This document shows positions 5,763 through 47,386 of a stretch of 64,000 bases of DNA, one piece after another. The position numbers and the translations under genes are program-made. Each line of letters starts with the position of its first letter. The first letter of the stretch is position 1. Origin of the DNA: a virus. The stretch lies in IMG/VR virus record IMGVR_UViG_3300025949_000019, positions 33,539 through 97,538 of that record, one strand, 5' to 3'. The notes below the pieces were generated by a model. The model worked only from the letters and a program-made list of their open reading frames with translations. It ran no database searches and was not told the origin of the DNA.

Positions 5763-5764
5763 AA

Positions 5765-7822
5765 ATGACAACAAACGTCCTAAGAATAACAGAAATAGAC
5801 TTCGATACCATCCTTGGTAATCTGAGAACATGGTTCCAATCCCAAGATCAGTTCAAGGACTATGACTTTGAAGGCTCTGGTCTTTCAATTTTATTGAAGA
5901 ACCTAGCGTACAATACACACTATAATGCCTTCTATCTAAACATGGCAGTCAATGAGGCGTTTATTGGTGGCGCTATTGTTGCAAGGAACGTTTATTCTCA
6001 TGCAAAGACATTGAATTATCTACCAGGTTCTAGGATAGCAGCAAAAGCTACTGTAGATGTTACAATCACACCACCACCAAACTATTCATCTTCTGCTTTC
6101 ACGATTCCAAAATACCAACAATTCGTTTCTTCTGCAATCGATGGAGTCTCATATTCATTTGTGACAACAGAATCCCTATTTGGTTCTAGGGTTACCTCGT
6201 TTGGCCAAGAGCCATTCCTATTTTCTGGTGTAATTTTGTCTCAGGGCGAACCAATCACAATAACATATACTGTTGACCAAACAACAAATCCGAAGCTTCG
6301 TTTTGAGATTCCATCTGCAAATGTAGACATAAACACACTATCGGTTCAGACGCAAGAATCAGCATCAAATACATTGATAACAACATGGTCTGTTTCTAGT
6401 GACATTACCGCAATCGATTCTTCTACAAATGCATTCTTCCTAGAACGTGGATCAAACGGAAACTATACTCTGTATTTCGGTGATGGTATCGTTGGTAAGA
6501 AGCCAAATACTGGCAATTTGTTGTTGGTCTCATATTTGGTAACAAATGGCCTAGAAGCAAATAAGGCTCAATTCTTCACGATGCTGCCATTAGATAACGT
6601 AGCCTCTGTCTCTGTCTCTACTGTAGCGGCTGCGGCTGGTGGTGATGATGAGGAATCAATCGATTCTATCAAAGCATCTGCGCCTATTTTCTATTCTACG
6701 CAAGGTCGAGCAGTCACGAAGGGAGACTTTGAAGTTACCATTAAGAAAGATTTCCCGGCTGTAGGTTCTGTTTCTGTCTGGGGTGGTGAGGAAAACAACC
6801 CACCTATTTACGGCAAAGTCTTTGTTGCACTTGCACCAAAGGAAGGATTCTTGATTTCTCAAGCCCAGAAGGACAGTATCGTTAAGAAATTAGTAGAGGA
6901 AAGAGTAACCGTCTCTATCAACCCAGAAATCAAGGACCCAGACTATACTTACGTCAGGTTGAAATCAACTGTGCAGTATGACAAACAAAAGACAAATCTA
7001 ACAAAAGGCGTCCTTACGGATGCAATTAGAAATGCAATCATAGATTACAACGAAACCAATCTAAGAACATTCGATTCTAATTTTATCACATCTAAACTGG
7101 CAACCGCAATTGACGATTCGAACCCAGCTATTCTTGGTAATGACACTAGGGTTTTCCTAGAGAAAAGGTTTCTTCCTGTCATTGGTAGAAGTGGTACATA
7201 CACCCTAAACTTCAATACAGAACTAAAGCGTGGAACTGTCATTGATAAACTAGGTTCAACAGTCTTCCAAATGTTAGACCCAAACGGTATTGAACAGAGC
7301 GTTTATTTCGAAGAAAAGCCATTGTCCTTTACTGGTATCGATGATATTGTTGTTACAAATCCGGGATCGCAATATCTTTCACCACCAGATGTTGTAATCA
7401 CAGGTGATGGACAGGGTGCAACCGCGAGCGCAAGCATTGTGAATGGTATGGTCAAATCCATCAAGGTCACAAACAAGGGCGACTCTTACACGACCGCACT
7501 CGTCACATTGAATTCTGACACAGGGCTCGGAGCAACTGCGAAACCAGTCATTGCAGCACGCTATGGGCAGCTAAGAATCTTCTATTACAATGATCTACAG
7601 CAAAAGGTGATTCTAGTTGAAAATGCAGGAACAATCGATTATCTTCTAGGCCAGATTGTGATCACTTCATTCAATCCATCTAATTTCAGTCGTTATATTG
7701 CACTGTGGTTACAGACAGAGGAACCCATCATTCAATCAGTTAGAGGAAGCATTTTGATCATAGACACCTCTGATATTTCATCAATCAACATTAACTTGCA
7801 AGAATCGTCAGCATCTTCATGA
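5765..7822 (+). CDS. 6: Baseplate wedge protein gp6 (baseplate J family)
   Basis: The N-terminus (FDTILGNLRTWFQSQDQFKD, then GSGLSILLKNLAYNTHYNAFY) is typical of T4-type gp6, and the 685-residue length is close to T4 gp6. The middle carries the J-like part (GDGIVGKKPNTGN, then QGRAVTKGDFEV and PPIYGKVFVAL). By family knowledge gp6 forms the inner iris of the baseplate together with gp25 and gp7. Residues about 525-596 hold an added domain built of G-x-G/S-Y and G-x-GA-x-A steps that recurs in the next three baseplate genes. The stop overlaps the next start by 4 nt (ATGA). Confidence 0.93.
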   Translation: MTTNVLRITEIDFDTILGNLRTWFQSQDQFKDYDFEGSGLSILLKNLAYNTHYNAFYLNMAVNEAFIGGAIVARNVYSHAKTLNYLPGSRIAAKATVDVTITPPPNYSSSAFTIPKYQQFVSSAIDGVSYSFVTTESLFGSRVTSFGQEPFLFSGVILSQGEPITITYTVDQTTNPKLRFEIPSANVDINTLSVQTQESASNTLITTWSVSSDITAIDSSTNAFFLERGSNGNYTLYFGDGIVGKKPNTGNLLLVSYLVTNGLEANKAQFFTMLPLDNVASVSVSTVAAAAGGDDEESIDSIKASAPIFYSTQGRAVTKGDFEVTIKKDFPAVGSVSVWGGEENNPPIYGKVFVALAPKEGFLISQAQKDSIVKKLVEERVTVSINPEIKDPDYTYVRLKSTVQYDKQKTNLTKGVLTDAIRNAIIDYNETNLRTFDSNFITSKLATAIDDSNPAILGNDTRVFLEKRFLPVIGRSGTYTLNFNTELKRGTVIDKLGSTVFQMLDPNGIEQSVYFEEKPLSFTGIDDIVVTNPGSQYLSPPDVVITGDGQGATASASIVNGMVKSIKVTNKGDSYTTALVTLNSDTGLGATAKPVIAARYGQLRIFYYNDLQQKVILVENAGTIDYLLGQIVITSFNPSNFSRYIALWLQTEEPIIQSVRGSILIIDTSDISSININLQESSASS

Positions 7823-32212: not shown

Positions 32213-32413
32213 ATGTCACATCTATTTCTAACATTGCTTGGAGTCGGCGGATTCATCGTTGCATTTCTTGGTCTTGGATATGCAGTCGTAGCAGGAGCCG
32301 ATCCAGAAGGGCGTGGCGGAAGCGACGCCCTTCTAGGTCTTCTTGTTGCACTACTTGGCACAACAACATTTTTCACATCGATCGGTTTGTCAATTTGGCA
32401 ATATTTCCACTAA
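32213..32413 (+). CDS. Small two-segment membrane protein, 66 aa
   Basis: Residues about 4-28 and 38-62 are hydrophobic (LFLTLLGVGGFIVAFLGLGY and ALLGLLVALLGTTTFFTSIG), joined by a polar loop DPEGRGGSD, so the protein should form a membrane hairpin with Gly-rich helices. Size and layout are compatible with a holin, but small membrane proteins of other function look the same, and a holin inside the tail cassette would be odd. It is located between sheath and a capsid-leader protein; an alternative is an ejected pore-forming virion protein. No Shine-Dalgarno sequence stands out. Confidence 0.55.
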   Translation: MSHLFLTLLGVGGFIVAFLGLGYAVVAGADPEGRGGSDALLGLLVALLGTTTFFTSIGLSIWQYFH

Positions 32414-32422: not shown

Positions 32423-32656
32423 ATGAAAACATACAAACAGTTGATTTCGGAGTTGAGCCTAACAACACTGACAAGATATCGCCATGCAGCAAGAAAATCA
32501 ATCCCTGCTCTTAGGGATGCATCTAAAAAAACTAGCTATATTGATGCAAATATCTTGGATAAGGCTTTTAATAGAGAAGATGGCGTAAGGCTCGCAACCA
32601 AGAAAATCAACCGTAAGATGGCTGTACAGAAATTAGCAAAACCATTAGAAAAATAA
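32423..32656 (+). CDS. Putative internal head protein with capsid-targeting leader, 77 aa
   Basis: The first residues MKTYKQLISELSL resemble the T4 capsid-targeting leader MKTYQEFIAE of internal proteins, with Ile-Ser-Glu fitting the gp21 cleavage rule (hydrophobic, any, Glu). The rest is very basic (RYRHAARKS, LATKKINRKMAVQKLAKP), a composition suited to lie with packaged DNA. No catalytic motif is seen. It is placed between the sheath-linked membrane protein and the tail tube gene. Packaging into the head is inferred from the leader. Confidence 0.65.
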   Translation: MKTYKQLISELSLTTLTRYRHAARKSIPALRDASKKTSYIDANILDKAFNREDGVRLATKKINRKMAVQKLAKPLEK

Positions 32657-33312: not shown

Positions 33313-35310
33313 ATGTCAGAATTCTTAAGGTTGTTAGGTTTTAATTTTGGTCCTAACACGTCTATCACAAAGGAAGTTCCAAAAGAGGAACGTTCTCCAA
33401 TCACCCCAGTCAATGAAGATGGGGCAGTCACCATTCAGTCTACGCCATACTATGGCACCTACATCGACCTAGAAGGTTCGGTCAGAAACGAAGTAGAGTT
33501 AATCACGAAATATCGCTCAATGTCAATTCAACCCGAGTTGGAAAGAGCAATCGATGAAGTCGTAAACGAAGCAATTCAAAAGGACGAAGAAGGTGATATC
33601 GTTGAACTTGACCTAGATGACTTGAAGGTCTCTGAGGGAACAAAGGAACGAGTCATTGAAGAATTCGAAGAAGTCCTGAAATTATTGAACTTCAACACAA
33701 CACCAGATGAAATCTTCAGAAGATGGTACATAGATGGTAGAATTTACTATCACATCATCGTAAACGAAATTGATCCATCAACCGGCATACGAGAACTACG
33801 CTATGTCGATCCTCGTAGAATCAGAAAAATCCGTGAGATTCAGAAGAAAAAGGACCCATTGACTGGTGCAGATGTTATTGTCAAGATCAATGAGTATTTT
33901 CTATATTCTGAGAAAGTCACGCTCTCACAGACAGTCTCTACAAACCTAGGTCTAAAGATCGCGCCAGATTCAATCATCTATGTCAATTCGTCTTTGATGG
34001 ATGAGAAGGGTTTGATGGTTCTTTCCTATCTACACAAAGCAATCAAACCCCTAAACAATCTAAGAATGGTAGAAGATGCATTGGTCATCTACCGACTTTC
34101 TAGGGCTCCAGAACGTAGAGTGTTTTACATTGACGTTGGTAATATGCCGAAGCAAAAAGCAGACCAATATCTGTATGACATTATGATGAAGTACAGAAAC
34201 AAATTGGTTTATGATGCCTCGACAGGTGAGGTTCGTGACGATAGAAAACACTTGAATATGATGGAGGACTTCTGGATTCCACGTCGCGGAGAAGGAAAGT
34301 CAACAGAAATCTCTACACTTCAATCTGGACAAAACCTGTCTAGAATCGAAGATGCTGAATTCTTCAAGAAGAAGCTATACGAATCGCTTGGAATCCCGGT
34401 TGGTCGTCTAAACCTTGATGGAAATGCTCCCTCAATCGTCGGTGTTGGTCGTTCTACTGAGGTCACAAGGGAAGAACTTAAGTTTGCCAAATTCATTGAT
34501 CGTCTTCGTAACAAATTTTCAAATGTCTTCTTGAATGCACTTGGCACCCAACTTCGCCTAAAGAATGTCTGTAATGAAGAAGAATGGAATGTTCTAAAGC
34601 AAGACATTAAATTCAAGTGGTTAAAATCAAACAACTTCGATGAACTCCTAGAAGGCGAACTTCTACGCGAGAGACTGATCACCCTTCAAGCAATCGATCC
34701 ATATGTTGGTCGTTATTTCTCGACAGAGTGGGTCAAAAAGAACGTCCTTCATATGAATGATGAAGAAATCTTGGAGATGGATGCACAGATCGAATCTGAG
34801 AATGAAGTCGGAACGCCTGCAATGGAAGGATCACCACTTCAAGTCCAACAGCAACAGCTTGACCAACAAGACCAGATGCAAACAATGGCACTTCAACAAC
34901 ACGATGCAGCCCTAGATCAACAAGATGCAGTCACGGGCGCAATCAAGGATGGCGGTGCTCAGATTGCAATTCAAGGCGCAATGATGCCTCCGGGACAAGG
35001 TGGTGGAGCAATCAACACATTCGGTAAGGCTGGCAAGAAACCGGGGCAACCTGGTCAAGGCAGCCCATTCGGAGGAACACCATCGGGTGCAGTTCCGGGT
35101 GATGGAGTCGGTGGCGGCGCTGGTTCTGGCGTAACGATGGGCGCAGGAACAGGTGGAGACATGAACATGGCTGGTGGCCAACAACAAAACGGACCAGTCG
35201 CACAACCCAAGATCGGAAATGCTCCCGGATCAGGGAAGAAGATTGCATCGAAGATGAAGAAGAAGGGTGCAGCAAACAGCAAAAAGAGGTTGAGTGGCGG
35301 TCTTCAATAG
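33313..35310 (+). CDS. 20: Portal protein gp20
   Basis: Strong family signals include YRSMSIQPELERAIDEVVNE, DGRIYYHIIV, YVDPRRIRKIREI and the core YRLSRAPERRVFYIDVGNMP, MMKYRNKLVYDASTGEV and LMPR-like FWIPRRGEGKSTEI followed by YESLGIPVGRL. The dodecamer forms the DNA entry vertex. Residues about 510-665 form an unusual low-complexity tail rich in Gln, Gly and Pro ending in a Lys-rich stretch (SGKKIASKMKKKGAANSKKR), longer than in T4 gp20. Confidence 0.96.
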   Translation: MSEFLRLLGFNFGPNTSITKEVPKEERSPITPVNEDGAVTIQSTPYYGTYIDLEGSVRNEVELITKYRSMSIQPELERAIDEVVNEAIQKDEEGDIVELDLDDLKVSEGTKERVIEEFEEVLKLLNFNTTPDEIFRRWYIDGRIYYHIIVNEIDPSTGIRELRYVDPRRIRKIREIQKKKDPLTGADVIVKINEYFLYSEKVTLSQTVSTNLGLKIAPDSIIYVNSSLMDEKGLMVLSYLHKAIKPLNNLRMVEDALVIYRLSRAPERRVFYIDVGNMPKQKADQYLYDIMMKYRNKLVYDASTGEVRDDRKHLNMMEDFWIPRRGEGKSTEISTLQSGQNLSRIEDAEFFKKKLYESLGIPVGRLNLDGNAPSIVGVGRSTEVTREELKFAKFIDRLRNKFSNVFLNALGTQLRLKNVCNEEEWNVLKQDIKFKWLKSNNFDELLEGELLRERLITLQAIDPYVGRYFSTEWVKKNVLHMNDEEILEMDAQIESENEVGTPAMEGSPLQVQQQQLDQQDQMQTMALQQHDAALDQQDAVTGAIKDGGAQIAIQGAMMPPGQGGGAINTFGKAGKKPGQPGQGSPFGGTPSGAVPGDGVGGGAGSGVTMGAGTGGDMNMAGGQQQNGPVAQPKIGNAPGSGKKIASKMKKKGAANSKKRLSGGLQ

Positions 35311-35322: not shown

Positions 35323-35793
35323 ATGGTAAAGAAGACAAAAACAACATACTATCACAAGAAACTCGGACCTGTTTCTAAGCTAGAACGTCGCTTGGAAAAA
35401 ACAAAAGCAGCCGATGTTCTTGGTAAGTTTGGTGACCACACAAAGGACAGAGTAAAGACGGTTGCGACTGTCTCTACTGGAGCCGCTGCAATCGGAACAC
35501 TAGGAGCAGCCGCAGCATTGGCGGCTCATTTTGCCGGCGGACCGTCTAATGCAGTTGCACCGACATTTCATGATTCTTATTTCTTTCATCCAGACCCAAT
35601 TCCACTAACGAGTGAGGAAGTTGATATGAACACGAAGAACAAAATAGAAGAACTTGTTGATCTTGTTTCCGTTGGTGTGGCTGAAAATTTACTGGACGAA
35701 GTTGCAAACCAAGTCCTCGGAGATAAGATAAGTGACCTATTGTATCAAAGAAGATTGCAGATAGCAGAGACATTATTTAAGGATAAAGACTAA
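35323..35793 (+). CDS. Unknown head-cluster protein with hydrophobic Ala/Gly segment, 156 aa
   Basis: The N-terminus is strongly basic (KKTKTTYYHKKLGPVSK). Residues about 47-73 (VSTGAAAIGTLGAAAALAAH) are hydrophobic, Ala/Gly-rich and long enough to span a membrane. The C-terminus (QVLGDKISDLLYQRRLQIAETLF) resembles that of the next protein (QALGNKILTNLEYRKAELAQAIF), so the two may have arisen by duplication. It sits between portal and prohead protease, where T4 has core proteins gp67 and gp68. An internal virion role is inferred. Confidence 0.6.
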   Translation: MVKKTKTTYYHKKLGPVSKLERRLEKTKAADVLGKFGDHTKDRVKTVATVSTGAAAIGTLGAAAALAAHFAGGPSNAVAPTFHDSYFFHPDPIPLTSEEVDMNTKNKIEELVDLVSVGVAENLLDEVANQVLGDKISDLLYQRRLQIAETLFKDKD

Positions 35794-35794
35794 C

Positions 35795-36406
35795 ATGGCT
35801 AAACATCATAAAAAAACCCACAAGCACTCTCACTATCATATCGGTCTTCCACCAAGGGAAGACAAGAGATACAAGAAAAACTTCATCTCAAAGCACCTGA
35901 AAGGTGTGACACAAGAAGAAACAGAGAACCTACAGGAATTGGGTTTGGCTGATGTTGCTAATCCAGTAGGTGCAATTGGTCGTGCTGGTGCAACAGTCGC
36001 AGGTAGATTGCAAGCTCGTCAGAGAAATGACAGAAGTAGAGCAGAAAAAAGTTCTGAGAGAACATCATCGGCTGTTAAGACAGGTTTGGCTGGTGCAGCA
36101 TTAGGGTCTGCTGCTGGATTGCCTGGTGCTGCAATTGGTGGAGCCGCTGGTGCAGTAGGTGGTTATTTGGGAGCAAGATCAGATCAAGCGAAGGATAAAA
36201 TGAAAGCAAAAGAACCATTACTAAGCACAGAAGAAATCGAATTAGTTGGCGCTGCAATTGACAGAATCTCAGCAGACGCAAATCAAGATGAAGCAAGGGA
36301 ATTCATTGCACAGGCTCTTGGCAACAAGATTCTTACAAACCTAGAATACAGAAAAGCAGAACTAGCACAGGCTATTTTCGGAACACATCAAGGAAATGAC
36401 GAATAA
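35795..36406 (+). CDS. Glycine-zipper protein of the head cluster, 203 aa
   Basis: The start is His/Lys-rich (KHHKKTHKHSHYHIGLP). Residues about 100-130 form a glycine zipper with GAALGSAAGLPGAAIGGAAG followed by AVGGYLGARSD, a pattern found in membrane-inserting and pore-forming proteins. The C-terminal 40 residues resemble the preceding protein. A possible gp21-type cleavage site is LQE in the region near residue 48. The end overlaps the next gene by 11 nt. Function unknown; an ejected internal protein is plausible. Confidence 0.6.
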   Translation: MAKHHKKTHKHSHYHIGLPPREDKRYKKNFISKHLKGVTQEETENLQELGLADVANPVGAIGRAGATVAGRLQARQRNDRSRAEKSSERTSSAVKTGLAGAALGSAAGLPGAAIGGAAGAVGGYLGARSDQAKDKMKAKEPLLSTEEIELVGAAIDRISADANQDEAREFIAQALGNKILTNLEYRKAELAQAIFGTHQGNDE

Positions 36407-38897
36407 CACTAGCAGCAATACAGAGATGTTTGTCGTAGAAGGTTTGGCTGACTCAATCAGGAGTTCGGCTGCGAAACTTTCTGGGCGTGCGTTTGTCAGA
36501 AATGCTTCACGCCATATGGGACAAGCAGTTGGCTCTGTTAGCAGCTATGTTGTTCATGGAACCGAGACGGCTGGTGAGGGAACTGCACACTATGTTATTC
36601 ATAAGAGTATACATGGTGAACATGAACACAAAAAGAACAAAAAACACAAAGTTGTTCATGAGGCTACTGGTTCGCAAATCAGAACAGCCGTCGTTGCTGG
36701 TGCATTGACTGGTGGTGTCGCAGCACACTATCTAAGAAAACACTATGACAAGAAGAAACATGTAAGAAGAAAGCACGTCAGAGAAAGTATTGGTGAATTA
36801 ATAGCTGGTGCGGCTGATGATATCGGAGTTGTTGCATACAAACATTTAACCAGAAAAGATAAGCCTAATAACAATATTGTTGCAGCTAATACTGTAAAGC
36901 CAAAGATGATGGTCAAAAAAGTAATCAAGAAACTCCCAGAGGGGTTTGCATCTTCGGCTGCAAGAATAGGTAAAAAAGCAATCGGAAACAAATGGGTTCG
37001 TGGCGGCGGAGCATTTCTAGCGGCTGCTGGCATTTCATCTGCGGTTTCTGACGTTGCTCAATCGGCAACTGAGAAATACTTAAAGAATAAAGATAAAGTT
37101 GCAGCTAGAAAATCACCCAAATCTTCGGAGGAAGTTCCTCAAGCATCTCAGGGAATGCAATATGAAGGTGTGATCGGTGCGGCGGCTGGTATCGCATCGA
37201 AGGCTGGGAAGTTTATTGCACAGCGCAAGAATCAAATCAAATCAACTGGCAAATTTGTTGCTGGCCAGAGCATTGGTGGTGCCGCAATTGGTGCGACAAT
37301 TCCGATTGTAGATCGTTATCTTGCAAAGAAAGAAAAAGAAACTGCTGCAAAGCAAGCTGGTCAACCAGTCTCAGAAGCACTTCATAAGGAACCACCAGTT
37401 GTTCTGATCTTGAAAAGAAAATCAATCAGACTGTTTCCACAGGGAGACAAAGTTGCTCTCTATAAGAACGACAAGACCGGCATTTCATTTGCGGTTCCAT
37501 ACGATGATCCAGAAGATGCAGTGAAATCAAACAACGAAATTATTGGCGCTGTCTCTGAAGGTGTCTTCAGGGATGTTGGTTCTGCTGCATGGAGAGAATT
37601 TAGAAGAACAATGGCAGCTAGAAAGAAAAGCGGACCGTTCACATATGATGCAAAGGAAGCGGAAGAAGCTGCAAAGCGCCATGCAGAGGCAGAAAAAGCA
37701 TACGAGAAATTGCATAAATCAATTCCAGGTCTTGACAAATTACCAAAAGGATCAGGACGTGCGGCTGCATGGGGTGTTTCTGCTGCTGTTGGCACGGGAT
37801 ATGTTGTTGACAAAGGAACAAGACACATAGAAAAGATCATTGACAACCCAGATAGGTCTAGGAGAGTTAATGGTCGCCCTGTCTATACTAACGAAGCTGC
37901 AAAATCACCGGGTGCACACCTTGGCAGACCATCCGTAAGCGGAGCCTTAAAGAATGGTGCTGCAATTGGTGGTGGATTAATTCTTGCAAAAGCAGCATAT
38001 GATACCGGAAAAAAGTATCTGGAAACAAAATCTAGTCGTGAAAAACAAGATAATTTCGAAAAACTTCAGAGACAAAATATGAAATACGTCAAGAAGATAA
38101 GGATGAGGAAGGAAGAAGTAGAACAACTAGATGAATTTTTACCAGCATTGATGGCGGCTGCAAGAGCCGCACCTGCTGTCATAAGAGCCGCCGCAGCAAG
38201 TCCACTAGGACGTTATGCTGGAAAAGCAATTGGTGTTGGTTCTACTGTTGGTGGTCTAGTCGGTCTTGGTAGTGCTACGATCAAGAAAAAGAAGAAACAA
38301 ACTTCAGTTGATCCAGATGATAGAAGCGATTCTTCACCAGATGCAGAACCAAATCCATCTGTGTCGGAGGCAACATCACACCACCAGATGACGCCCATCA
38401 AAGCAAAGGTCAATAAGTTTATTTCTAAGGATGTTAGAAAACATATTGCGATTGCCGCTGCTGGTGCACTTGGAGCAAAGCTTGTTGATATAGGGTATGA
38501 TGCATACAGGGATCATGCAGACATAAAGAAAGCTGAAAAAGAAGAAAAAGCAAAAGCAAGAGCCCAAAAGGAAGTCGCACCGAAAAAGATCATCATTCAG
38601 AAAAAGACGAACCCAAAGACAGGCACGACCACAGTCAAGAAAGAAATCAAAGAAGCAAAAGAAGAAGTGCGTGGTTATGGTGCTATCGTAGAATCAACAA
38701 GAAGTGGCTCTGACGGATATGTTCATCACAATGACGGAACTAGAAGCAAAGTAGATGTATATACTGCTCACATGATTCAGAATATCCATGAATCACTTAG
38801 CATCGAGAACCAACAGAAGCTAAGAGAAATGGTTGCAAGGGATAGAAGTAACTTCAACAAGATCGTTGATTTCGCACACAAACAACACAACAAATAG
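36396..38897 (+). CDS. Large glycine-zipper internal head protein with repeated protease-like sites, 833 aa
   Basis: Not a T4 homologue that I recognise. It alternates basic stretches (EHKKNKKHKVVHE, RKHVRESIGE) with at least five Ala/Gly-rich hydrophobic segments, for example IRTAVVAGALTGGVAAHYL, GGGAFLAAAGISSAVSDVA, GGAAIGATIPIV, GAAIGGGLILAKAAYD and IAIAAAGALGAKLVDI. Several sites fit the gp21 rule of hydrophobic-x-Glu before a small residue: FVVE-G, VVHE-A, PVSE-A, AVSE-G, SVSE-A. It may be cut into several peptides during head maturation. An inner ATG at 36426 (MFVVEGLADS) is a possible alternative start. The location between portal and protease supports an internal head role. Confidence 0.6.
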   Translation: MTNNTSSNTEMFVVEGLADSIRSSAAKLSGRAFVRNASRHMGQAVGSVSSYVVHGTETAGEGTAHYVIHKSIHGEHEHKKNKKHKVVHEATGSQIRTAVVAGALTGGVAAHYLRKHYDKKKHVRRKHVRESIGELIAGAADDIGVVAYKHLTRKDKPNNNIVAANTVKPKMMVKKVIKKLPEGFASSAARIGKKAIGNKWVRGGGAFLAAAGISSAVSDVAQSATEKYLKNKDKVAARKSPKSSEEVPQASQGMQYEGVIGAAAGIASKAGKFIAQRKNQIKSTGKFVAGQSIGGAAIGATIPIVDRYLAKKEKETAAKQAGQPVSEALHKEPPVVLILKRKSIRLFPQGDKVALYKNDKTGISFAVPYDDPEDAVKSNNEIIGAVSEGVFRDVGSAAWREFRRTMAARKKSGPFTYDAKEAEEAAKRHAEAEKAYEKLHKSIPGLDKLPKGSGRAAAWGVSAAVGTGYVVDKGTRHIEKIIDNPDRSRRVNGRPVYTNEAAKSPGAHLGRPSVSGALKNGAAIGGGLILAKAAYDTGKKYLETKSSREKQDNFEKLQRQNMKYVKKIRMRKEEVEQLDEFLPALMAAARAAPAVIRAAAASPLGRYAGKAIGVGSTVGGLVGLGSATIKKKKKQTSVDPDDRSDSSPDAEPNPSVSEATSHHQMTPIKAKVNKFISKDVRKHIAIAAAGALGAKLVDIGYDAYRDHADIKKAEKEEKAKARAQKEVAPKKIIIQKKTNPKTGTTTVKKEIKEAKEEVRGYGAIVESTRSGSDGYVHHNDGTRSKVDVYTAHMIQNIHESLSIENQQKLREMVARDRSNFNKIVDFAHKQHNK

Positions 38898-38910
38898 GAA
38901 GATATAGAAA

Positions 38911-39450
38911 ATGGCTTCATTTACAAAACAAGTCCTGAAGGACACAACAACCGAAACAGTCGTTAAATTCATCGGCTTCATTGATGCGGCTGCTAACTTG
39001 CCACAAACACTAGACCAAGCGAACAGCACACTTGCAATGGCATCGCTTCGCGGTGCTTATGACACAAACAATGCACTTCGCTCCGTGACTGGTAATGCTG
39101 CTCTATCTTTCTATGGAACAAACATTAGAAAAGTTAACTGGACAATTGCCGCAACACCAGCAAACGCTGCAATTCAACTTTCTTGGAGAGGTGGTGGATC
39201 GAATGCAAACGTTGTTGCATTCAACTTCTGCGGTGGTGCAGGAGAACTAGACTTCACCGACGGAACGACAGCCGCGGTTGCAATCACAGACCCGGGAGTT
39301 GGTTTGGGCGCAAACTCTGGCGATTTGATCGTTACTGCAACACCTGGTTTAACAGCAGCAACATATACAATCATTGTCGCATTGAAGAAAGACCCGAAAT
39401 ACTTTGACCGTGGTGCATTGGTCGACAAGGCTTACTTCCAGAACCCATAA
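38911..39450 (+). CDS. Virion structural protein, beta-rich, 179 aa
   Basis: The layout (FTKQVLKDTTTETVVKFIGF, then NIRKVNWTIAATPANAAIQL, SWRGGGSNANVVAFNFCGGA and AATYTIIVALKKDPKYFDRG) is familiar from structural proteins of distant T4-like phages, where a short beta-sandwich of this kind is found in virions. No signal or membrane segment is present. A Shine-Dalgarno-like AGGAAGAT precedes the start. Its place in the head cassette suggests a head decoration or core protein, but this is not established here. Confidence 0.6.
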   Translation: MASFTKQVLKDTTTETVVKFIGFIDAAANLPQTLDQANSTLAMASLRGAYDTNNALRSVTGNAALSFYGTNIRKVNWTIAATPANAAIQLSWRGGGSNANVVAFNFCGGAGELDFTDGTTAAVAITDPGVGLGANSGDLIVTATPGLTAATYTIIVALKKDPKYFDRGALVDKAYFQNP

Positions 39451-39454
39451 TAAC

Positions 39455-39898
39455 ATGAAGGGTCTTGATCTTGTCCATTACATTGCAAAGGGAGATTTAG
39501 AGGAAGCCTATGATGTTTTCCTTAGAAATCTTTCAGAGATTGTTTTGGTCAAGGTAAACGAAAGAAAACAGGACATTGCAGGGGAATTACTGGTAATTGG
39601 CGAAGTTCATAAATATCCAAAAGTTGTTAGAAGAATCGGGCGTTTGAATTTTGTCAGGATCAGGGTCAGACACGGAAAGATTCAACGAAATAGACGAGTC
39701 TCTGCGGTAAAGGGTTATACATTTAGGCATGGTCATCTGATTAGAATGAGACCGTCCGAGAGACTTCACAGAAGGCTTGCAGCAAGACGAGCAAAGATTA
39801 AGAGGCGTGCAAAGAGGTCCCAAACAAGAAGACACTTGATCATTGCAATGAGAAGAAGAAAATCACTAGGATTGTCATACAGGCCATTTGGAAGATGA
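39455..39898 (+). CDS. Prohead core protein, gp67-like N-terminus with basic C-terminus
   Basis: I choose ATG 39455 rather than the upstream in-frame start at 39404, which would overlap the previous gene by 47 nt. The N-terminus MKGLDLVHYIAKGDLEEAYD, continuing into FLRNLSEIVLVKVNE, resembles gp67 (Pip) core peptides, which begin with a short helical repeat of this kind. Residues about 65-148 are extremely basic with HGKIQRNRRVSAVKGYTF and RLAARRAKIKRRAKRS, a tail pattern I associate with core proteins of distant T4-like phages. It lies just upstream of gp21, as gp67 does in T4. Its end overlaps the next gene by a few bases. Confidence 0.6.
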   Translation: MKGLDLVHYIAKGDLEEAYDVFLRNLSEIVLVKVNERKQDIAGELLVIGEVHKYPKVVRRIGRLNFVRIRVRHGKIQRNRRVSAVKGYTFRHGHLIRMRPSERLHRRLAARRAKIKRRAKRSQTRRHLIIAMRRRKSLGLSYRPFGR

Positions 39899-39903
39899 TG
39901 ATG

Positions 39904-40236
39904 ATGAAAACATTCTTAGAATTCTTAGAAGAAAGCAGCAAGGTCATCGATATTGCAAATGTGCTGGTTCATAGATTGATAAAGCATCACCACAACATGC
40001 TAAGTCCAAAGGGATATGTTCATTCTGTAGTTCAAAAGGGTATCAGAACAACATATGCATGGAGAAAAGGTGACCACCACTTTGAGATTATGCATAAGAG
40101 TACAGACCCAAACTGGTATCAGTGGGGTCATGCGAAAGTAGGGAAAAACGGAAAACTAGATTTTTACAACTCAGGACAAGAACCACTTCGCGGTGATCCA
40201 GCAACGGGCGCACCAGACTTTAGGAGAATTAAATGA
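39904..40236 (+). CDS. Putative internal head protein with capsid-targeting leader, about 110 aa
   Basis: Four ATG codons in a row (39895, 39898, 39901, 39904) can start this gene; the last gives MKTFLEFLEESSK, aligned with the MKTFKQFITE leader of neighbouring genes. The Leu-Glu-Glu triplet fits the gp21 cleavage rule. The remainder is rich in His, Lys and Trp (RLIKHHHNML, HHFEIMHKSTDPNWYQWGH) and resembles no enzyme I know. It overlaps the following gene by 4 nt (ATGA). A packaged role is inferred. Confidence 0.6.
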   Translation: MKTFLEFLEESSKVIDIANVLVHRLIKHHHNMLSPKGYVHSVVQKGIRTTYAWRKGDHHFEIMHKSTDPNWYQWGHAKVGKNGKLDFYNSGQEPLRGDPATGAPDFRRIK

Positions 40237-40820
40237 AGACATTTAAACAATTCATAACAGAAAGAATGATGGGTCATGGTAGGAGCGGCGAACACTCAAA
40301 ACACTATGCTCATCCAATGCATCTTCATCTAAAGAAGGGCGCATTTCATCGCTGGCTTGGGAAGTCGGAAGGTGAGCCTATCACAGCCGCAGACATTCAA
40401 AAAGGTCTAGCTGCTGGTGGACATGCTGCTAAGATGGCAAACTTTGCAAGGAACGCAAAACATTTCCATCATGAGGAATACAGTCTACAAAACGAAAACG
40501 TTGCGAGAGACCATCCATATACAACTGCTGCCGCAGTCGGTGCTCCGATTGGAGCCGTTGGTGGTGCACTACATGGAGCAGGTTCTGGTTATAGTGTAGC
40601 AACCCAATTAGGTTTTAAGCGATCAGCAGCAAAAAGTATAATAAAAGCAGGACTTAAGGCTGGTGGTGTAGTTGGTGCTGCAACTGGAGCGGGTGCTGCT
40701 GCACTGGCAACATATGGATATAAAATCAGAAATAAACACCCAACTGTCGGAGGATACCTATCTGGTGGTGTTAAGGGTGCAATAGGAAGTAAAATCGACT
40801 CATATAAGGCGAAAAAATGA
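40233..40820 (+). CDS. Putative internal head protein with capsid-targeting leader and glycine zippers
   Basis: The leader MKTFKQFITERMM is a very close match to the T4 internal protein leader, with Ile-Thr-Glu as predicted gp21 site. After a His-rich stretch (SGEHSKHYAHPMHLHL), two glycine-zipper segments occur: AAAVGAPIGAVGGALHGAGS near residue 93 and GGVVGAATGAGAAALATYGY near 145. Such segments suggest membrane insertion. The gene overlaps both neighbours by 4 nt (ATGA), placing it in one translation unit with gp21, as expected of a core protein. It may be packaged and act in the host envelope after injection; this is inference. Confidence 0.65.
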   Translation: MKTFKQFITERMMGHGRSGEHSKHYAHPMHLHLKKGAFHRWLGKSEGEPITAADIQKGLAAGGHAAKMANFARNAKHFHHEEYSLQNENVARDHPYTTAAAVGAPIGAVGGALHGAGSGYSVATQLGFKRSAAKSIIKAGLKAGGVVGAATGAGAAALATYGYKIRNKHPTVGGYLSGGVKGAIGSKIDSYKAKK

Positions 40821-41485
40821 AATTACTCAAAGAGATAGTCGAAGACATTCAAGTTACAATACTAGAAGAAAAAGAAGGTGGCAAGAAAGCCTACTTCATT
40901 GAAGGTATCTGGCTTCAATCTGAATTGAAGAACAGAAACGGAAGAATGTATCCAATGCCAGTCTTGGAACGTGAAGTAAAGAGATATTCTGAGCAATACA
41001 TCGACAAGAAAAGAGCATTCGGTGAGCTAGGGCACCCAGATAGTCCCACTATTAACCTGGATCGTGTAAGCCACTCTATTGTTGAGCTACATAGAGATGG
41101 GAACAACTTTATGGGCAAAGCTAAGATTCTAGAGACCCCAAACGGCAAGATCGTAAAGACATTTCTAGACGAAGGCTTAACAATCGGTGTCTCCTCAAGA
41201 GGTCTTGGATCATTGAAGACAACCTCGGAAGGTGTGAACATCGTTCAGGATGACTTCTACCTTGCAACCGCTGGAGATATCGTTGCAGACCCGTCAGCAC
41301 CCGATGCATTTGTTCAAGGGATCATGGAAGACAAGGAATGGTTGTTTATTGATGGACAAGGATGGATTCCGCAGTTTTTGGATGAAACCAAGAGAGATAT
41401 TAAGAAAATGACTGCAAAGGAAATCAATGAAAAGAAGATGGCGATTTTCGAAGCATTCATGAAGAACTTAGGTGGACAGAAATAA
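40817..41485 (+). CDS. 21: Prohead protease gp21
   Basis: The sequence AYFIEGIWLQSELKNRNGRM, YPMPVLEREVKRY, then FGELGHPDSPTINLDRVSHS with the catalytic His in GHPD, and TIGVSSRGLGSL with the catalytic Ser identify the T4-type serine prohead protease (S77 family, herpesvirus assemblin fold). DFYLATAGDIVADPSAPDAF follows, as in the family. It cleaves head proteins after hydrophobic-x-Glu. The N-terminus MKLLKEIVEDIQV itself resembles the capsid-targeting leaders of this phage. Confidence 0.95.
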   Translation: MKLLKEIVEDIQVTILEEKEGGKKAYFIEGIWLQSELKNRNGRMYPMPVLEREVKRYSEQYIDKKRAFGELGHPDSPTINLDRVSHSIVELHRDGNNFMGKAKILETPNGKIVKTFLDEGLTIGVSSRGLGSLKTTSEGVNIVQDDFYLATAGDIVADPSAPDAFVQGIMEDKEWLFIDGQGWIPQFLDETKRDIKKMTAKEINEKKMAIFEAFMKNLGGQK

Positions 41486-41552: not shown

Positions 41553-42965
41553 ATGGCTAAAAAGACATTAACCGAAGCAGCAGCAGAAATTTTGAATCAA
41601 AGCCGCTCGTCTGCACCCGGTCAACCACAGCAAAAACTGGAATCTGATCCAGGTTTTGATTCTGCTGTTCAAGGCGGAAAGAGCGAAGAAGACCTTGGTG
41701 GAGACACACCTAAAGTCGTCGCAGCAAACAATCCAGACCCAACTCGTCCAATCGGCAAAGCAAAAGAGCCAGGCGCAACTCCTCCAATTGGTAAGGAAAA
41801 TGACGCAAGGACAAAGAGCCTAAAAGGCAACAACTCTACTGAAGATGACCTTCAATCCAGAGGACCAAATAAAGTGAAATATCAAACATCCGGTGATGGT
41901 AACCCCGCTGCACGTGGTGGTACTGAAGATGCAGAACTAGAACACCAAGAAGACGAATTCTGTGAAGAACAAGTCCTCTATGTTGATGAAGAAGGTAATG
42001 TCCTAGATGAAGAAGGCAATATCCTTTCAGACGAAGAACTAGCAAATTACGAACTAGTCGAAGAAATCGAAGAAGACGACGACACCAACAACGATGAAAA
42101 TGAAGTCATCGAAGAAGGCGAAGAAGAAAGCGTTCTTCTATTCGACAGAGAAGCAATCTATGAATCGTTTAGACAAGACCTCGAAGCTGACCTTGGTAAT
42201 CTTCTTGATGATGATACAACTCTCTCAGAAGAATTCAAAGGGAAAGCAAAGACAATCTTTGAAGCAGCAGTCATGGCTCGCGTAGACCAAATGGCTGATG
42301 CACTAGAAGCCGCATTCGTAGAAACACTAGAAGAAGCCATTGATGAAATCAAGGGTGACCTGACAGAAAAGACAAACGACTACCTATCCTATGTTGCAGA
42401 ACAATGGATGCAAGAGAATGAACTTGCAGTCGAAAAAGCACTGAAGTCAGAACTAACAGAAGATTTCATTAACGGACTAAAAGAACTATTTGTTGAGCAC
42501 TATATCAATATCCCTGAAGATAAGGTTGATGTTGTTGAAGAACTCGCAGAAGAAGTCGCACAAGTCGAAGAAAGACTGAACGAAGAAATTCAGAAAAACA
42601 TCGACCTGAGCAAGGAAGTAAAGTCTTATCAAGCCGCAGAAGCTTTTGCCACAGTGTGCGAAGGTCTAACAGACGTGCAAGTTGATAAGATGCAAACTCT
42701 AGCAGAAGGACTTGAATTCGGCACTGTTGCAGAATTCACAGAAAAACTTGAAATGTTGCGCGACAACTATTTCTCGACTGCTGGAGATGGCAGCAAATCA
42801 GCACCTAAGACAAAGGAAGTAGGACAAACCAGTGATGGTGGATTGAACGAAACCATCGAGATTGAAGAAACCGGCACTAAGAAGTTCATTACTGCTGATG
42901 GATCGGTCTCTGCATTTACAAAAGCACTAGATAAAGCTTCTGCAAATCAACTGCCAAAATCCTAA
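41553..42965 (+). CDS. 22: Prohead core scaffold protein gp22
   Basis: Identified by position between gp21 and gp23 and by composition: a very acidic protein with VEEIEEDDDTNNDENEVIE and long helical Glu-rich stretches (VDVVEELAEEVAQVEERLNE), plus DREAIYESFRQDLEADLGNL and FEAAVMARVDQMADALEAAF, which match scaffold core proteins. The N-terminal 130 residues are low complexity. The 470-residue length is greater than T4 gp22. The core is degraded by gp21 during head maturation. A TATAAATA promoter precedes it. Confidence 0.9.
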   Translation: MAKKTLTEAAAEILNQSRSSAPGQPQQKLESDPGFDSAVQGGKSEEDLGGDTPKVVAANNPDPTRPIGKAKEPGATPPIGKENDARTKSLKGNNSTEDDLQSRGPNKVKYQTSGDGNPAARGGTEDAELEHQEDEFCEEQVLYVDEEGNVLDEEGNILSDEELANYELVEEIEEDDDTNNDENEVIEEGEEESVLLFDREAIYESFRQDLEADLGNLLDDDTTLSEEFKGKAKTIFEAAVMARVDQMADALEAAFVETLEEAIDEIKGDLTEKTNDYLSYVAEQWMQENELAVEKALKSELTEDFINGLKELFVEHYINIPEDKVDVVEELAEEVAQVEERLNEEIQKNIDLSKEVKSYQAAEAFATVCEGLTDVQVDKMQTLAEGLEFGTVAEFTEKLEMLRDNYFSTAGDGSKSAPKTKEVGQTSDGGLNETIEIEETGTKKFITADGSVSAFTKALDKASANQLPKS

Positions 42966-43014: not shown

Positions 43015-44337
43015 ATGGATAATGTAATTCCTATCAACACTCTCGTAGAAAAATGGAAGCCCGTCCTAGACCACGAAGGCTACAATCCTATTAAGGATGA
43101 CGCCCGCAGGAAGGCTACCGCTGTTGTTCTTGAGAACACATCGAAAGCCCTACAAACAGAAGGCGCAGTTCATAACCTTCTAACAGAAAACGCACCTACA
43201 AACCACATTGGTGGTTCTGGTGTCGCAACATTTGACCCTGTTCTTATTTCCTTGATTCGCCGTGCAATGCCTAAGTTGATTGCATATGACGTTGTTGGCG
43301 TTCAACCAATGACAGGACCAACTGGACTGATCTTTGCAATGAGAAGCCGTTATGCTTCACAAGTTGGAACAGAAGCTTTGTTCAACGAAGCAAACACAGC
43401 ATGGACAGGACTTGGTAACCAAGTTAACACAGACCCAACATTTGCACTTTCAACAAACACATCGTATACAGTAGGTACACCAATGTCTACAGCAACCGCT
43501 GAAGGACTTGGAACTTCTGGAAACGCTGCATTCGCTGAAATGGCATTCAGCATCGAGAAAATCACTGTCACAGCCCAAAGCCGTGCATTGAAAGCAGAAT
43601 ACTCGATGGAACTTGCACAAGACCTTAAAGCAATTCATGGTCTAGATGCAGAAGGAGAATTGAGCAACATTCTTTCAGCAGAACTATTGACTGAAATTAA
43701 CCGTGAAGTCATCCGTAGAATCTACATGTCAGCAACAATCGGTGCTCAGTGGGCAGTTACCACAACGGGAACATTCGACTTGGATACTGACGCAAACGGA
43801 CGTTGGTCAGTTGAAAAATTCAAGGGACTTGTTTTCCAAATTGAAAAAGAAGCAAACGCAATTGCACGTACAACTCGTAGAGGCAAGGGTAACATTATGA
43901 TTGTCTCCGCTGACGTTGCATCTGCACTAGCAATGGCAGGAGTCCTATCATACACACCAGCCCTACAAGCAAGTGTAAACCTAGAAGTAGATGAAACAGG
44001 AAACACATTTGCAGGAACAATGAGCGGTGGACGTGTTAAAGTCTTTATCGATCCATACTTCGGAGGCGCATCAGCCGGAAACGAGCTAGTTGTCGTTGGA
44101 TACAAGGGAGCAAACATCTATGACGCAGGTATCTTCTACTGCCCATACGTTCCTCTACAAATGGTCCGTGCTGTTGATCCTAACAGCTTCCAACCAAAAA
44201 TTGGATTCAAGACACGTTATGGAATGGTAGCAAACCCATTTGCAACATCAAACGCAGATGGAGTCGTAGGAGACCGTGGAGTAGCAGGACAAGCGAATAT
44301 TTACTACAGAATCTTCCGCGTCGTCAACTTGATGTAA
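43015..44337 (+). CDS. 23: Major capsid protein gp23
   Basis: Family features: an N-terminal delta region ending at LLTE-N (residue 58), which fits the gp21 cleavage rule; then VATFDPVLISLIRRAMPKLI, DVVGVQPMTGPTGLIFAMRS and the C-terminal GVVGDRGVAGQANIYYRIF. The 440 residues are somewhat fewer than T4 gp23. It forms the hexamers of the head shell. It is followed by a strong terminator, and its own late promoter motif lies upstream. No gp24-type paralogue is seen nearby. Confidence 0.97.
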   Translation: MDNVIPINTLVEKWKPVLDHEGYNPIKDDARRKATAVVLENTSKALQTEGAVHNLLTENAPTNHIGGSGVATFDPVLISLIRRAMPKLIAYDVVGVQPMTGPTGLIFAMRSRYASQVGTEALFNEANTAWTGLGNQVNTDPTFALSTNTSYTVGTPMSTATAEGLGTSGNAAFAEMAFSIEKITVTAQSRALKAEYSMELAQDLKAIHGLDAEGELSNILSAELLTEINREVIRRIYMSATIGAQWAVTTTGTFDLDTDANGRWSVEKFKGLVFQIEKEANAIARTTRRGKGNIMIVSADVASALAMAGVLSYTPALQASVNLEVDETGNTFAGTMSGGRVKVFIDPYFGGASAGNELVVVGYKGANIYDAGIFYCPYVPLQMVRAVDPNSFQPKIGFKTRYGMVANPFATSNADGVVGDRGVAGQANIYYRIFRVVNLM

Positions 44338-44439: not shown

Positions 44440-45186
44440 ATGAAAACATACCATCAATTCATAACGGAAATCAGGCTATTACCAAAACTATTCAAGAGGC
44501 ACACTCTTGGATTAAGAACACAAACATATGGATTAGGTAGTTACTTCAAACAAATTGTTAAACAACAACACACGCAAGAATTGCTACATGTAGATAAATT
44601 GAAATCGGGGCATAAAATTTACCATCATGTTAAAACTCATCTACCCAGCGAAAAAATCTATCGTGTAGTAAACAAGCATAGCGGTAAAATATCAACAGTC
44701 TTAGTCACAACACCAAATAGTGGTGGTGTTGAGACAATTGATAGAGTTGCAACAACAAGATCAATGAGAAAGAACAAAAATCGTCTAAAGTTGGTTGACC
44801 TCTACCATCATCTAATAACAAAACATAATGTAATCCTAGCTACGGACGACCAATCTGTTGGTGGTATGAAAACATGGCAAGAACTTTCTAGGAAGAAGGG
44901 CATCAATATTCACGGATGGGACAAAGAAACAGGCAAACCAATCAATACACCTAGCATATTGACACCCGATAATGCACATGAAACGCATTACAAGGATATC
45001 GGAATGAATGATTTTGTTACACCCGAAACCAAAAGAACAAGATTAAAGGTGAAACACAAAAATCCAGAATATGTAGACCAAATAAGAGACATTAGACATA
45101 GAGACCATCTAGATGCATATGATGATGTTACAGATAATCGTTTTCATATTGGCAGAATGAGACTTGTAGCTCATAAGAAAGATTAA
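44440..45186 (+). CDS. Putative internal head protein with capsid-targeting leader, 248 aa
   Basis: The leader MKTYHQFITEIRLLPKLFKR matches the T4 internal protein leader, with Ile-Thr-Glu as predicted cleavage site. The body is basic. Residues about 125-165 (LVDLYHHLITKHNVILATDD, then QSVGGMKTWQELSRKKGINI) recall a pattern seen in some acetyltransferase-fold proteins, but no full GNAT motif set is visible, so I do not assign activity. It begins just after the terminator and the CATAAATA motif, and is followed by two further unknowns in a tight unit. Confidence 0.6.
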   Translation: MKTYHQFITEIRLLPKLFKRHTLGLRTQTYGLGSYFKQIVKQQHTQELLHVDKLKSGHKIYHHVKTHLPSEKIYRVVNKHSGKISTVLVTTPNSGGVETIDRVATTRSMRKNKNRLKLVDLYHHLITKHNVILATDDQSVGGMKTWQELSRKKGINIHGWDKETGKPINTPSILTPDNAHETHYKDIGMNDFVTPETKRTRLKVKHKNPEYVDQIRDIRHRDHLDAYDDVTDNRFHIGRMRLVAHKKD

Positions 45187-45188
45187 TT

Positions 45189-45776
45189 GTGTCAGACAAA
45201 ATCAAATATCACACCGACTTTCAGCCTAGATCGGAGTTAGGTAAACTAGCTGCAAAGTTGACCTTTGGTGACATATATCACCAGAAGGGTAAATGGTTTC
45301 GTGTGAATGGTCATAGAATTTCAGAACTAGGAACAAACTTCTTTTCATTGGTTGACGATGTTTATCGCCCTCTATATGGTGGACATTCTGCGCTTGCATC
45401 ACCACAGGATGTAACTGCATCTAATTTCTGGACAGCAATAAACCTACATCCCAAATCTGGACATGCAAATGCGGTTATATTTGCTAGAAAGACAAATGGT
45501 GGATACAAGATTCGTGGTATTGGTCACGATGGAAGCAAGGAAGCAAAGTCTGCTGTCATTGCACATCTTCTATATCTTTTAAACAAAGATGGCTATTGGA
45601 TTGAGGCTTCGGATAGACTTGGAGAGATTCTATTAGCAAAAAGAACTCCAATCGTGACTGATGTAAAGACAATAGAAAAACTGTTTCCGGGACAGAAGAT
45701 CGAGATTCAAAAGGACGGAAGCTATATCAGGCAGAATAAATACAGGGAAACTCTATTCGGAAAGCCAAAGCTGTGA
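45189..45776 (+). CDS. Unknown protein, 195 aa, in capsid-leader operon
   Basis: Starts with GTG 2 nt after the previous stop and overlaps the next gene by 4 nt (GTGA). The most distinctive stretch is IRGIGHDGSKEAKSAVIAHL, followed by LLNKDGYWIEASDRLGEI and KTIEKLFPGQKIE, which I have the impression of having seen in unknown proteins of T4-like phages but cannot name. No leader of the MKTFKQF type is present. Because it is wedged between two leader-bearing genes it may be a partner or inhibitor of one of them; this is a guess from position. Confidence 0.55.
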   Translation: MSDKIKYHTDFQPRSELGKLAAKLTFGDIYHQKGKWFRVNGHRISELGTNFFSLVDDVYRPLYGGHSALASPQDVTASNFWTAINLHPKSGHANAVIFARKTNGGYKIRGIGHDGSKEAKSAVIAHLLYLLNKDGYWIEASDRLGEILLAKRTPIVTDVKTIEKLFPGQKIEIQKDGSYIRQNKYRETLFGKPKL

Positions 45777-47386
45777 AAACATATCAACAAATGATGGTCG
45801 AAATATCAACAAAGGTCCTAGCTCCATATATCGAAAAGGCTGGGCAATCGATCAAGAATATGGTTTCATCTTCAGATAAACAAAAACTTCTGCCTAAGAT
45901 TATCAAACGTTCTGGTGGTATCAAGGCTGCAAAGGCTAGACCATTACCATTCTATAAGGATTCTTCTTCTTCTTCTGATGTTGTTGGTGGATTTGTATTG
46001 TCCCATAAGCAAAAATTCGTCTTGAATCAATATAGAGATAAATTGATTCAGGCTATAAGCAAGGATAACAGTAGGTTTAGAAATCCATCGTATGTTTCTC
46101 CAGAAGGCTTAATTGCTGGTTTTGCTAGGCATGATCCATCAGGTAAACATGAAGATTACTTGAATTTCATGGCTAGAATGTACTCAGCAGAAAAATTCAA
46201 AATTGAAGATATACCAAGAATAGAGAATGAGCTAGATAAGTTTACCAAGATTAAACACCAACTACCAAACAAGGATATTGATTCGTATAAGGATTTGGAA
46301 CAATTGTATGATGCAGTAGATTCTGTTGAACCAAAATTATCTAAGAACATGTCAATGGAATTGGCTAAGAAAGCTGGTACAGTTGTTCTTGTTAATGAAC
46401 CAGACTTCAAACTACTTCAATTGAAAAACATGGGAGCCGTTAAACAATATTGCTCAGGCACGCGCTGGTGTTTTTCGTCTGACTATGATACATTCAAGGA
46501 ATATTCCGGTGGTCTTTATTTGATTCTTGCGCGCATCAACGGAGAGGTCAGAAAACTGGCTTTTCATAGAAGTTCTGGTCAATTTATGAATGAAAAGGAT
46601 ATCCATATCATTGAAAGAGCAGAAGAAGGTTCTAAACCATTCAAGCAACTAGTAAATGAATTAGCAAAATTTCCGGGATTCCAGAAAGCGTTACAGTTAT
46701 ATTTTGGCAAGGGCATTGATGCACAACTCAGAATAAAGAACCTGCTTCGCATTTCTGGTGATATACACACTAGGGATAAAGAATTAGAAGACCTATTCGC
46801 AAAACAATTAAATTTGGTAAACACCGGTAAGAGTGATGAAGACGATATTTTGGATGATATTCTATTCAGTTACGTACAAGATACAAAACAACCAGTTTCG
46901 TCGGCATTAGAAAACGAAATGTACAAATGGGCTACAAAAAATCAACATGCTGGTTATCTTCTACAATATGCAGTATTTGCCAAAAAGAAATTACCCCTAG
47001 ACATGGAAAAGATGTTACTTAATGATGGCGGCTGGGATTTTATGAAATACGTTGACGGAGTTGTGAAGGGCCCGGTACCAGAACTTGAACATATAATATT
47101 TGATAAAGACTCTAACTATTGGCCAAACAGGCGTGTAAATGGACATGAATACGCCTTTGCTATTGATTTGAGAGAAACTTTGAAATATTTACTAAAGTGG
47201 GCAAAGAAAAGAGCGCCGACAGATTTTGAGCCATTTCTCTTTACCAAAATTCCACCATCATCTATGACACCAGAAACAAGAACAGAACTTAGAAACTACA
47301 GGATAGCTTATGCAAAGAAGTACCTTAGGCAAGACACAAGAACTTGGGCTAGAAATTGGATAGCTAACCACAAGAGATATTTCTAA
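45773..47386 (+). CDS. Putative large internal head protein with capsid-targeting leader, 537 aa
   Basis: From GTG 45773 the protein starts MKTYQQMMVEISTKVLAPY, with Met-Val-Glu as possible gp21 site. Around residues 220-285 is GAVKQYCSGTRWCFSSDYDT followed by GGLYLILARINGEVRKLAFH and SSGQFMNEKDIH, a Trp-Cys containing pattern I associate with a widespread family of unknown function in phages. The C-terminal half is helical and mixed in charge. T4 packages the large ADP-ribosyltransferase Alt in a similar way, so a large injected effector is conceivable, but no ADP-ribosyltransferase motif was seen. Confidence 0.6.
   Translation: MKTYQQMMVEISTKVLAPYIEKAGQSIKNMVSSSDKQKLLPKIIKRSGGIKAAKARPLPFYKDSSSSSDVVGGFVLSHKQKFVLNQYRDKLIQAISKDNSRFRNPSYVSPEGLIAGFARHDPSGKHEDYLNFMARMYSAEKFKIEDIPRIENELDKFTKIKHQLPNKDIDSYKDLEQLYDAVDSVEPKLSKNMSMELAKKAGTVVLVNEPDFKLLQLKNMGAVKQYCSGTRWCFSSDYDTFKEYSGGLYLILARINGEVRKLAFHRSSGQFMNEKDIHIIERAEEGSKPFKQLVNELAKFPGFQKALQLYFGKGIDAQLRIKNLLRISGDIHTRDKELEDLFAKQLNLVNTGKSDEDDILDDILFSYVQDTKQPVSSALENEMYKWATKNQHAGYLLQYAVFAKKKLPLDMEKMLLNDGGWDFMKYVDGVVKGPVPELEHIIFDKDSNYWPNRRVNGHEYAFAIDLRETLKYLLKWAKKRAPTDFEPFLFTKIPPSSMTPETRTELRNYRIAYAKKYLRQDTRTWARNWIANHKRYF

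Follow-up and report, generated by a model that had tools for sequence, protein, structure and literature searches.

A probable enlarged prohead-core and internal-protein cassette with Ala/Gly-rich zipper segments between the portal and protease genes of a T4-like virus

Core and internal proteins of the T4 type are already known. Phage T4 packages and ejects its internal proteins (IPs) and the enzyme Alt (PMC9026906), so that ejection by itself is not new. The internal proteins are basic (PMC9026906) and reach DNA phosphates via lysines (PMC3012670). Ten residues of the capsid-targeting sequence (CTS) are enough for packaging and the prohead protease gp21 cleaves after L/I-x-E (PMC9026906), both the CTS and the gp21 motif being established in T4 (PMC9026906, PMC5694885). 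Head assembly in T4 is nucleated on the membrane, and gp67, gp68 and gp22 are cut into fragments, most of which leave the head (PMC5694885, PMC9026906). Cyanophages are reported to be missing gp67 and gp68, and cyanomyoviruses to be without alt (PMC2984593). Between gp20 and gp21, T4 has only small core proteins (gp67, 80 aa; gp68, 141 aa), as an earlier note on the DNA studied here correctly stated. We know of no zipper runs in IPI, IPII or IPIII.

We analysed bases 33539-97538 of the 97.5 kb record of an uncultured T4-like virus; this whole stretch of 64,000 nucleotides is called the window. The four proteins singled out by the earlier note, here gz1 to gz4, are encoded by real, closely spaced genes on the same strand within the late head operon, in the interval from gp20 to gp21 (Table 1). 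Genes gp22 and gp23 and then more CTS-bearing ORFs follow. Besides gz1-gz4, the block holds the genes at 38911 and 39895 and a gp67/gp68-like gene of its own (39455-39898, start taken from the sequence reading), whose product weakly matches PHROG 1064 prohead (E 0.007) and PHROG 3503 scaffold (E 0.047). We read the block as an enlarged T4-type prohead-core and internal-protein cassette that would be processed by gp21, with the zipper pieces mostly retained, and put the probability of this reading at about 0.6. The module homologies, CTS, linker enrichment and position described below are seen in the sequence itself.

Table 1. Genes in and around the portal-protease interval, in window positions; an arrow in a motif marks the presumed gp21 cut.
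Feature	Position	Strand	Content or evidence
Small predicted internal protein	32423..32656	+	T4-type CTS MKTYKQLISE↓L (CTS pattern)
gp20 portal	33313..35310	+	Pfam Portal_T4, E 3.9e-166; opens the interval
gz1, 156 aa	35323..35793	+	A/G-rich uncharged run, residues 46-83; C-terminal gp67-like module by gz2 paralogy
gz2, 203 aa	35795..36406	+	Basic N-terminus; zipper run 96-127; C-terminal gp67-like (famA) module ~153-200
gz3, 833 aa	36396..38897	+	Giant famB protein; B1 ~313-370, B2 ~763-830
o4 (famC), conserved structural-type interval protein	38911..39450	+	famC HMM, E 2e-28
gp67/gp68-like basic core protein (famD)	39455..39898	+	famD HMM, E 3e-28
o6, small	39895..40236	+	CTS-like start MKTFLEFLEE↓S (T4-derived CTS pattern)
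gz4, 195 aa	40233..40820	+	CTS MKTFKQFITE↓R; M1 module, residues 32-80 (40326-40472); zipper runs 94-128, 143-163
gp21 prohead protease (S77), presumed processing enzyme	40817..41485	+	Pfam Peptidase_S77, E 1.5e-38
gp22 scaffold	41553..42965	+	Pfam T4_CASP, E 3e-66
gp23 major capsid protein	43015..44337	+	62% identity to that of Methylophilales phage Melnitz-3, the nearest isolate capsid protein
Predicted internal protein	44440..45186	+	CTS MKTYHQFITE↓I (CTS pattern)
537 aa protein	45773..47386	+	CTS-like start MKTYQQMMVE↓I; GTG start codon (sequence reading)

T4 IPII and IPIII start with MKTYQEFIAE↓A and IPI with MKTFKEF. A CTS pattern derived from T4, MK(T/S)(F/Y/L)xx(F/L/M), picks out exactly ipI, ipII and ipIII in a 20 kb T4 stretch and has no match in the T4 head-gene stretch. 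In the window it finds four genes (32423, 39895, 40233 and 44440), each of them within the head cluster, and in related loci 57 plus-strand versus one minus-strand ORF starts, many of them famB members (see below). Alone among the four proteins, gz4 carries an N-terminal CTS that ends in a gp21 site. This start is of the type MKT(F/Y)xxFxxE shared by T4 IPI, IPII, IPIII and Alt, and an S77 prohead protease recognising L/I-x-E is a further likeness to T4. Unlike the T4 internal proteins, whose ip genes are located elsewhere in the T4 genome, gz1, gz2 and gz3 have no canonical CTS match (starts MVKKTKTT, MAKHHKKT and MTNNTSSN). Residues 1-43 of the 44440 protein weakly match the internal head protein family PHROG 2667 (E 0.039), and a possible shared second module in the ORF at 32423 is weak (best p 0.003). 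Near the block, the ordinary transmembrane segment with the highest score (KD19 2.27) is in a 66-aa ORF (32213-32413 in the window) immediately 5' of a CTS-bearing ORF.

About 170 related loci were compared, 80 fetched by gp21 and 80 by famB alignment (429 candidates). Their gp20-gp21 interval carries four recurring families, famA to famD. The first is a gp67-like module of ~50 residues that mostly lies directly after gp20, as T4 gp67 does, and whose members weakly match PHROG 1064 'prohead', the family including T4 gp67 (E 5e-4 to 9e-4). HMMs for famA, for the two famB domains, B1 and B2, and for famC and famD were built without the window sequence. The gz2 C-terminus matches the famA model at 17.9 bits (E 9e-5 in a set of 1842 ORFs), and gz2 thus has both the gp67-like module and the post-gp20 position. 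There is no match of gz1 to the famA HMM; its alignment with gz2 spans the zipper as well as the C-terminal module (score 87 versus a maximum of 62 in 2000 shuffles), which marks gz1 at the sequence level as a paralog of gz2 and links it to gp67 by that paralogy only. The pair shares its gp20-gp21 position with T4 gp67 (pip) and gp68. In contrast to the short T4 gp67 with its acidic tail, gz1 and gz2 have no acidic tail and carry an additional N-terminal zipper part, and the gp67 link is one of short modules and modest E-values. The AlphaFold model of gz2 alone has a pLDDT of 46, too low to interpret.

The third protein, gz3, belongs to famB, which is widespread (429 candidate loci), and matches the B1 HMM at E 4e-13 and the B2 HMM at E 1.5e-15. 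Two-domain members have a median length of 234 aa versus 833 aa for gz3, the longest of 93 distinct famB proteins and the one with the most A/G runs (five), its zipper repeats lying ahead of B1 and between B1 and B2. From this comparison of domain layout and length, we take gz3 to be a member of a common core family enlarged by ~300 residues N-terminally and ~390 between the domains. Typical members open with a CTS-like MK(S/T)(L/F)xxF; gz3, starting MTNNTSSNTEMFVVE, has neither such a start nor the compact famB size. Its internal repeats are modest (11 of 91 pairs at p<0.01, two of these trivial overlaps). B1 is three-stranded and B2, modelled with high confidence, is mainly helical with a short hairpin. 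A fold search with famB gave no PDB match at E <= 0.001, and the matches among viral proteins were uncharacterised phage proteins. Fusion of a core module to sequence of this kind is seen independently in a related locus (L016:107-826), whose B2 domain has another Ala/Gly/Lys-rich stretch (GDYLGAALDAAGALPIVGYA...) as its N-terminus. The Melnitz phage (L086) encodes two B2-domain proteins (96-1520 and 5688-6206) in a small-gene cluster far from the portal-protease interval.

Bare L/I-x-E motifs are not enriched in gz3 (7 versus 5.1 expected); only a longer acidic linker is informative. Around the sites in interval proteins, E is 2-3x enriched at P5-P9, D 2.9x at P2 and A 2.1x at P1', a residue pattern absent from the upstream proteins of related loci. 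A set of 176 non-redundant interval proteins contains the linker pattern E(E/D)x1-3(L/I/V/M)(D/E/V/Q/H/N)E 60 times, versus 7.4 in shuffles (maximum 17), a somewhat optimistic figure since the pattern was chosen after seeing the proteins of L093, L092 and L060. As a safeguard against this post hoc choice, 181 upstream control proteins were scored, with 14 occurrences versus 8.1 expected. Of 71 famB proteins, 44 also have a cleavage-like site where B2 begins, versus 20.2 (maximum 31) at random positions, though related sequences inflate the figure.

In the window, gz2 has the cleavage-like linker EETENLQE↓L (residues 41-48), and gz3 has cleavage-like sites at 580 (KEEVEQLDE↓F, the linker type of KEEVEQVEE↓G and KEEVEQIDE↓N in L150) and, just before B2, at 766 (AIVE↓S). 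With one or two convincing linkers each, gz2 and gz3 are not clear polyproteins, and the window proteins are weaker candidates than a 768 aa protein in the gp20-gp21 interval of a related locus (L093:9677-11983), which reads as a polyprotein with 8 linker sites versus 0.11 expected. Its ~10 small His-rich modules, very roughly 50-90 residues each, lie between EETLDE-type linkers; isolate phages, Pfam and PHROGs contain no match to it, and proteins of L092 and L060 resemble it. Searches of 50,697 isolate phages with gz3, gz4, the L017 famB protein and the L093 polyprotein gave no matches. Phage polyvalent proteins (Iyer 2017, PMC5512222) are likewise large, multi-module, probably packaged and freed by proteolysis, a likeness best seen in L093, but here there is no Pfam domain and no built-in peptidase, and the cutter would be gp21.

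The M1 module of gz4 shares 73-79% identity with modules of L092 and L093 and is present in 23 viral loci, lying between gp20 and gp21 in most where both are visible. It stands alone, behind a famA module (L188, L193 and L092) or inside multi-module proteins (L093, L189 and L184). It (KKGAFHRWLGK...) also occurs in phage contigs including L187:3050-5764, L203 and L204, where gp20/gp21 similarity was not detected in the stretch fetched.

Two relatives (L017 and L077) open the interval, next to gp20, with a gene for an Alt-like RNA polymerase ADP-ribosyltransferase with a CTS-like start (PHROG 802, E 4e-15 and 1e-9). This likeness to T4 Alt is the best independent hint of delivered cargo in the interval. 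Alt-like genes with CTS-like starts lie directly after gp20 at L017:5983-6822, L077:3610-4530 and L061:5242-6111, the last called by eye from similarity.

These observations bear on a pure assembly role, in which the zippers would pack the enlarged core proteins or tether the portal-core initiator at the inner membrane, gp21 would clear them and nothing would be ejected. Such a role suits the location straight after gp20, the gp67-like and famB core modules, and the precedent of T4 heads that begin on the membrane and mostly lose their gp67, gp68 and gp22 fragments (PMC5694885, PMC9026906). It sits less well with the internal-protein CTS of gz4, a signal whose bearers in T4 are kept in the head and ejected, with the few cleavage sites in the zipper parts of gz3 and gz4 as against the 19 L/I-x-E motifs of gp22, and with the Alt-like enzyme that relatives place in the interval. 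We regard it as possible, although on the doubtful side.

The earlier note had described G-x3-G segments in all four proteins. Compared with shuffles of the same protein, GxxxG is in excess in gz2 (7 versus 2.2, p 0.003), in gz4 (11 versus 4.4, p 0.002) and weakly in gz3 (11 versus 6.0, p 0.03), whereas gz1 has an A/G-rich run but no GxxxG (0 versus 0.5). The shuffles rule out chance as the source in gz2 and gz4, and gz1 is no longer counted among the zipper proteins. Against the Pfam glycine-zipper models, gz2 (17.9 bits) and gz4 (13.6 bits) stay below the curated cut-offs of 28.9 and 27 bits. Uncharged A/G/S-rich runs of at least 16 aa number 9 in the 1387 aa of gz1-gz4, versus 0.60 per 1000 aa in the 181 upstream proteins and 0.97 per 1000 aa in 166 portal-protease interval proteins, the near-identical twins of gz1-gz4 among them. 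This is roughly 6 to 10 times the density in other related-locus proteins, by a loose test on which tail-fibre-like glycine-rich proteins score as well. The zipper parts have no homologs beyond this phage and one near-identical contig, the sole relative also returned by IMG/VR single-protein searches with gz1, gz2 and gz3. Comparison with relatives, as proposed in the earlier note, gives the interval a probable identity, through the ~170 loci, but does not extend to its zippers.

The description 'very basic' holds for gz3 (net charge +60) and gz4 (+17) but not for gz1 (0) or gz2 (+5). Lys/Ala/Gly-rich gz3 and gz4 might then bind packaged DNA, the zippers being merely flexible or helical spacers, an idea in keeping with the basic character of the T4 internal proteins (PMC9026906) and their lysine contacts to DNA phosphates (PMC3012670). 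A spacer, however, needs no G-x3-G excess, yet gz2 and gz4 have one and gz3 a weak one; gz1 and gz2 are also close to neutral. We consider this account unlikely.

The central proposal of the earlier note, by analogy with T7 and P22, was that the proteins could form a DNA conduit across the envelope; in such a scheme the gz proteins would exit the head first and build a channel through their zipper helices. It is not evident why a phage with a contractile tail would need an extra tube. The analogy is fair as composition: P22 gp7, gp16 and gp20 and T7 gp16 have A/G-rich uncharged runs and KD values resembling those of the gz proteins, and P22 scaffold and coat have no such runs (T7 gp14 and full gp15 fall outside the T7 stretch compared). 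It is not one of homology, since gz1-gz4 match no known ejection-protein family in Pfam or PHROG; the podovirus ejection proteins (P22 gp7, gp16, gp20; T7 gp14-16) belong to another phage type, and ejection of the gz proteins would be by extrapolation. A T6SS effector, Tde1, requires its glycine zipper for membrane passage (PMC10240207). Its repeated GxxxG is matched here in proteins possibly delivered to bacterial cells, but Tde1 belongs to another system and is an analogy only for what a zipper could do. None of the gz segments passes the transmembrane thresholds (a 19-residue segment with KD >1.6 or a favourable Wimley-White sum): the maximum 19-residue KD values are 1.25-1.53, and the octanol sums are negative for all gz runs. 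Contractile tails, moreover, reportedly pierce the envelope and let DNA through directly (PMC8954989). Together with the partial homology of gz1-gz3 to core proteins, these results leave the conduit unsupported, and we judge it very unlikely. The earlier note had itself counted soluble scaffold parts degraded before maturation against its proposal, a case that is partly touched, the core proteins to which gz1-gz3 are partly homologous being of the type so degraded.

Taken together, the CTS of gz4, the gp67-like module of gz2, the core-family domains of gz3 and the gp21-type linkers, along with the Alt-like enzyme in the interval of relatives and the P22/T7-like A/G-rich runs, support at the sequence level placing the gz proteins in the prohead interior, as head-interior proteins that are probably packaged and partly ejected. 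The assembly or anchoring, DNA-binding and conduit alternatives are each compatible with a core-protein identity. In the cassette reading, gz4 would join the gp22 core through its CTS, and gz1, gz2 and gz3 through their gp67-like and famB core modules. The neighbouring gp21 would then cleave at the acidic L/I-x-E linkers, and the core pieces would exit the head. The zipper-bearing pieces, basic and self-associating, would mostly remain with the DNA as internal proteins. At least the mature part of gz4 would probably be ejected alongside the DNA, and the zipper stretches would associate with the membrane or with one another. We infer this order, from core entry through gp21 cutting and retention to ejection, from T4, and packaging, cleavage, retention, ejection and membrane association would each follow by analogy.

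The open-access literature searched yielded no description of a module-shuffled, linker-separated interval or of its zipper-bearing versions. In T4, a few stand-alone genes encode the internal proteins. The site beside the head protease seems, in many environmental T4-like phages, to serve as an exchangeable cargo slot for linker-joined modules. If so, the protein load delivered by such phages would be readable from sequence, and the cargo, zipper proteins included, directly testable with T4 CTS and gp21 tools. A bolder version, which we hold to be quite unlikely, is that in many uncultured T4-like phages the slot takes core-targeted polyproteins, which gp21 cuts into small modules within the head, and here supplies membrane-active zipper peptides that enter the cell along with the DNA and breach the inner membrane or remodel it.

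The portal-protease interval of relatives also contains genes with, by eye, the look of HNH or GIY-YIG homing endonucleases (L005:6091-6552, L005:9408-10010, L105:7611-8012 and L028:7490-8086), suggesting an insertion hot spot. In one further locus (L029:5691-8300), an 869-aa protein with collagen-like repeats, unlike the other interval proteins, lies between gp20 and famA.
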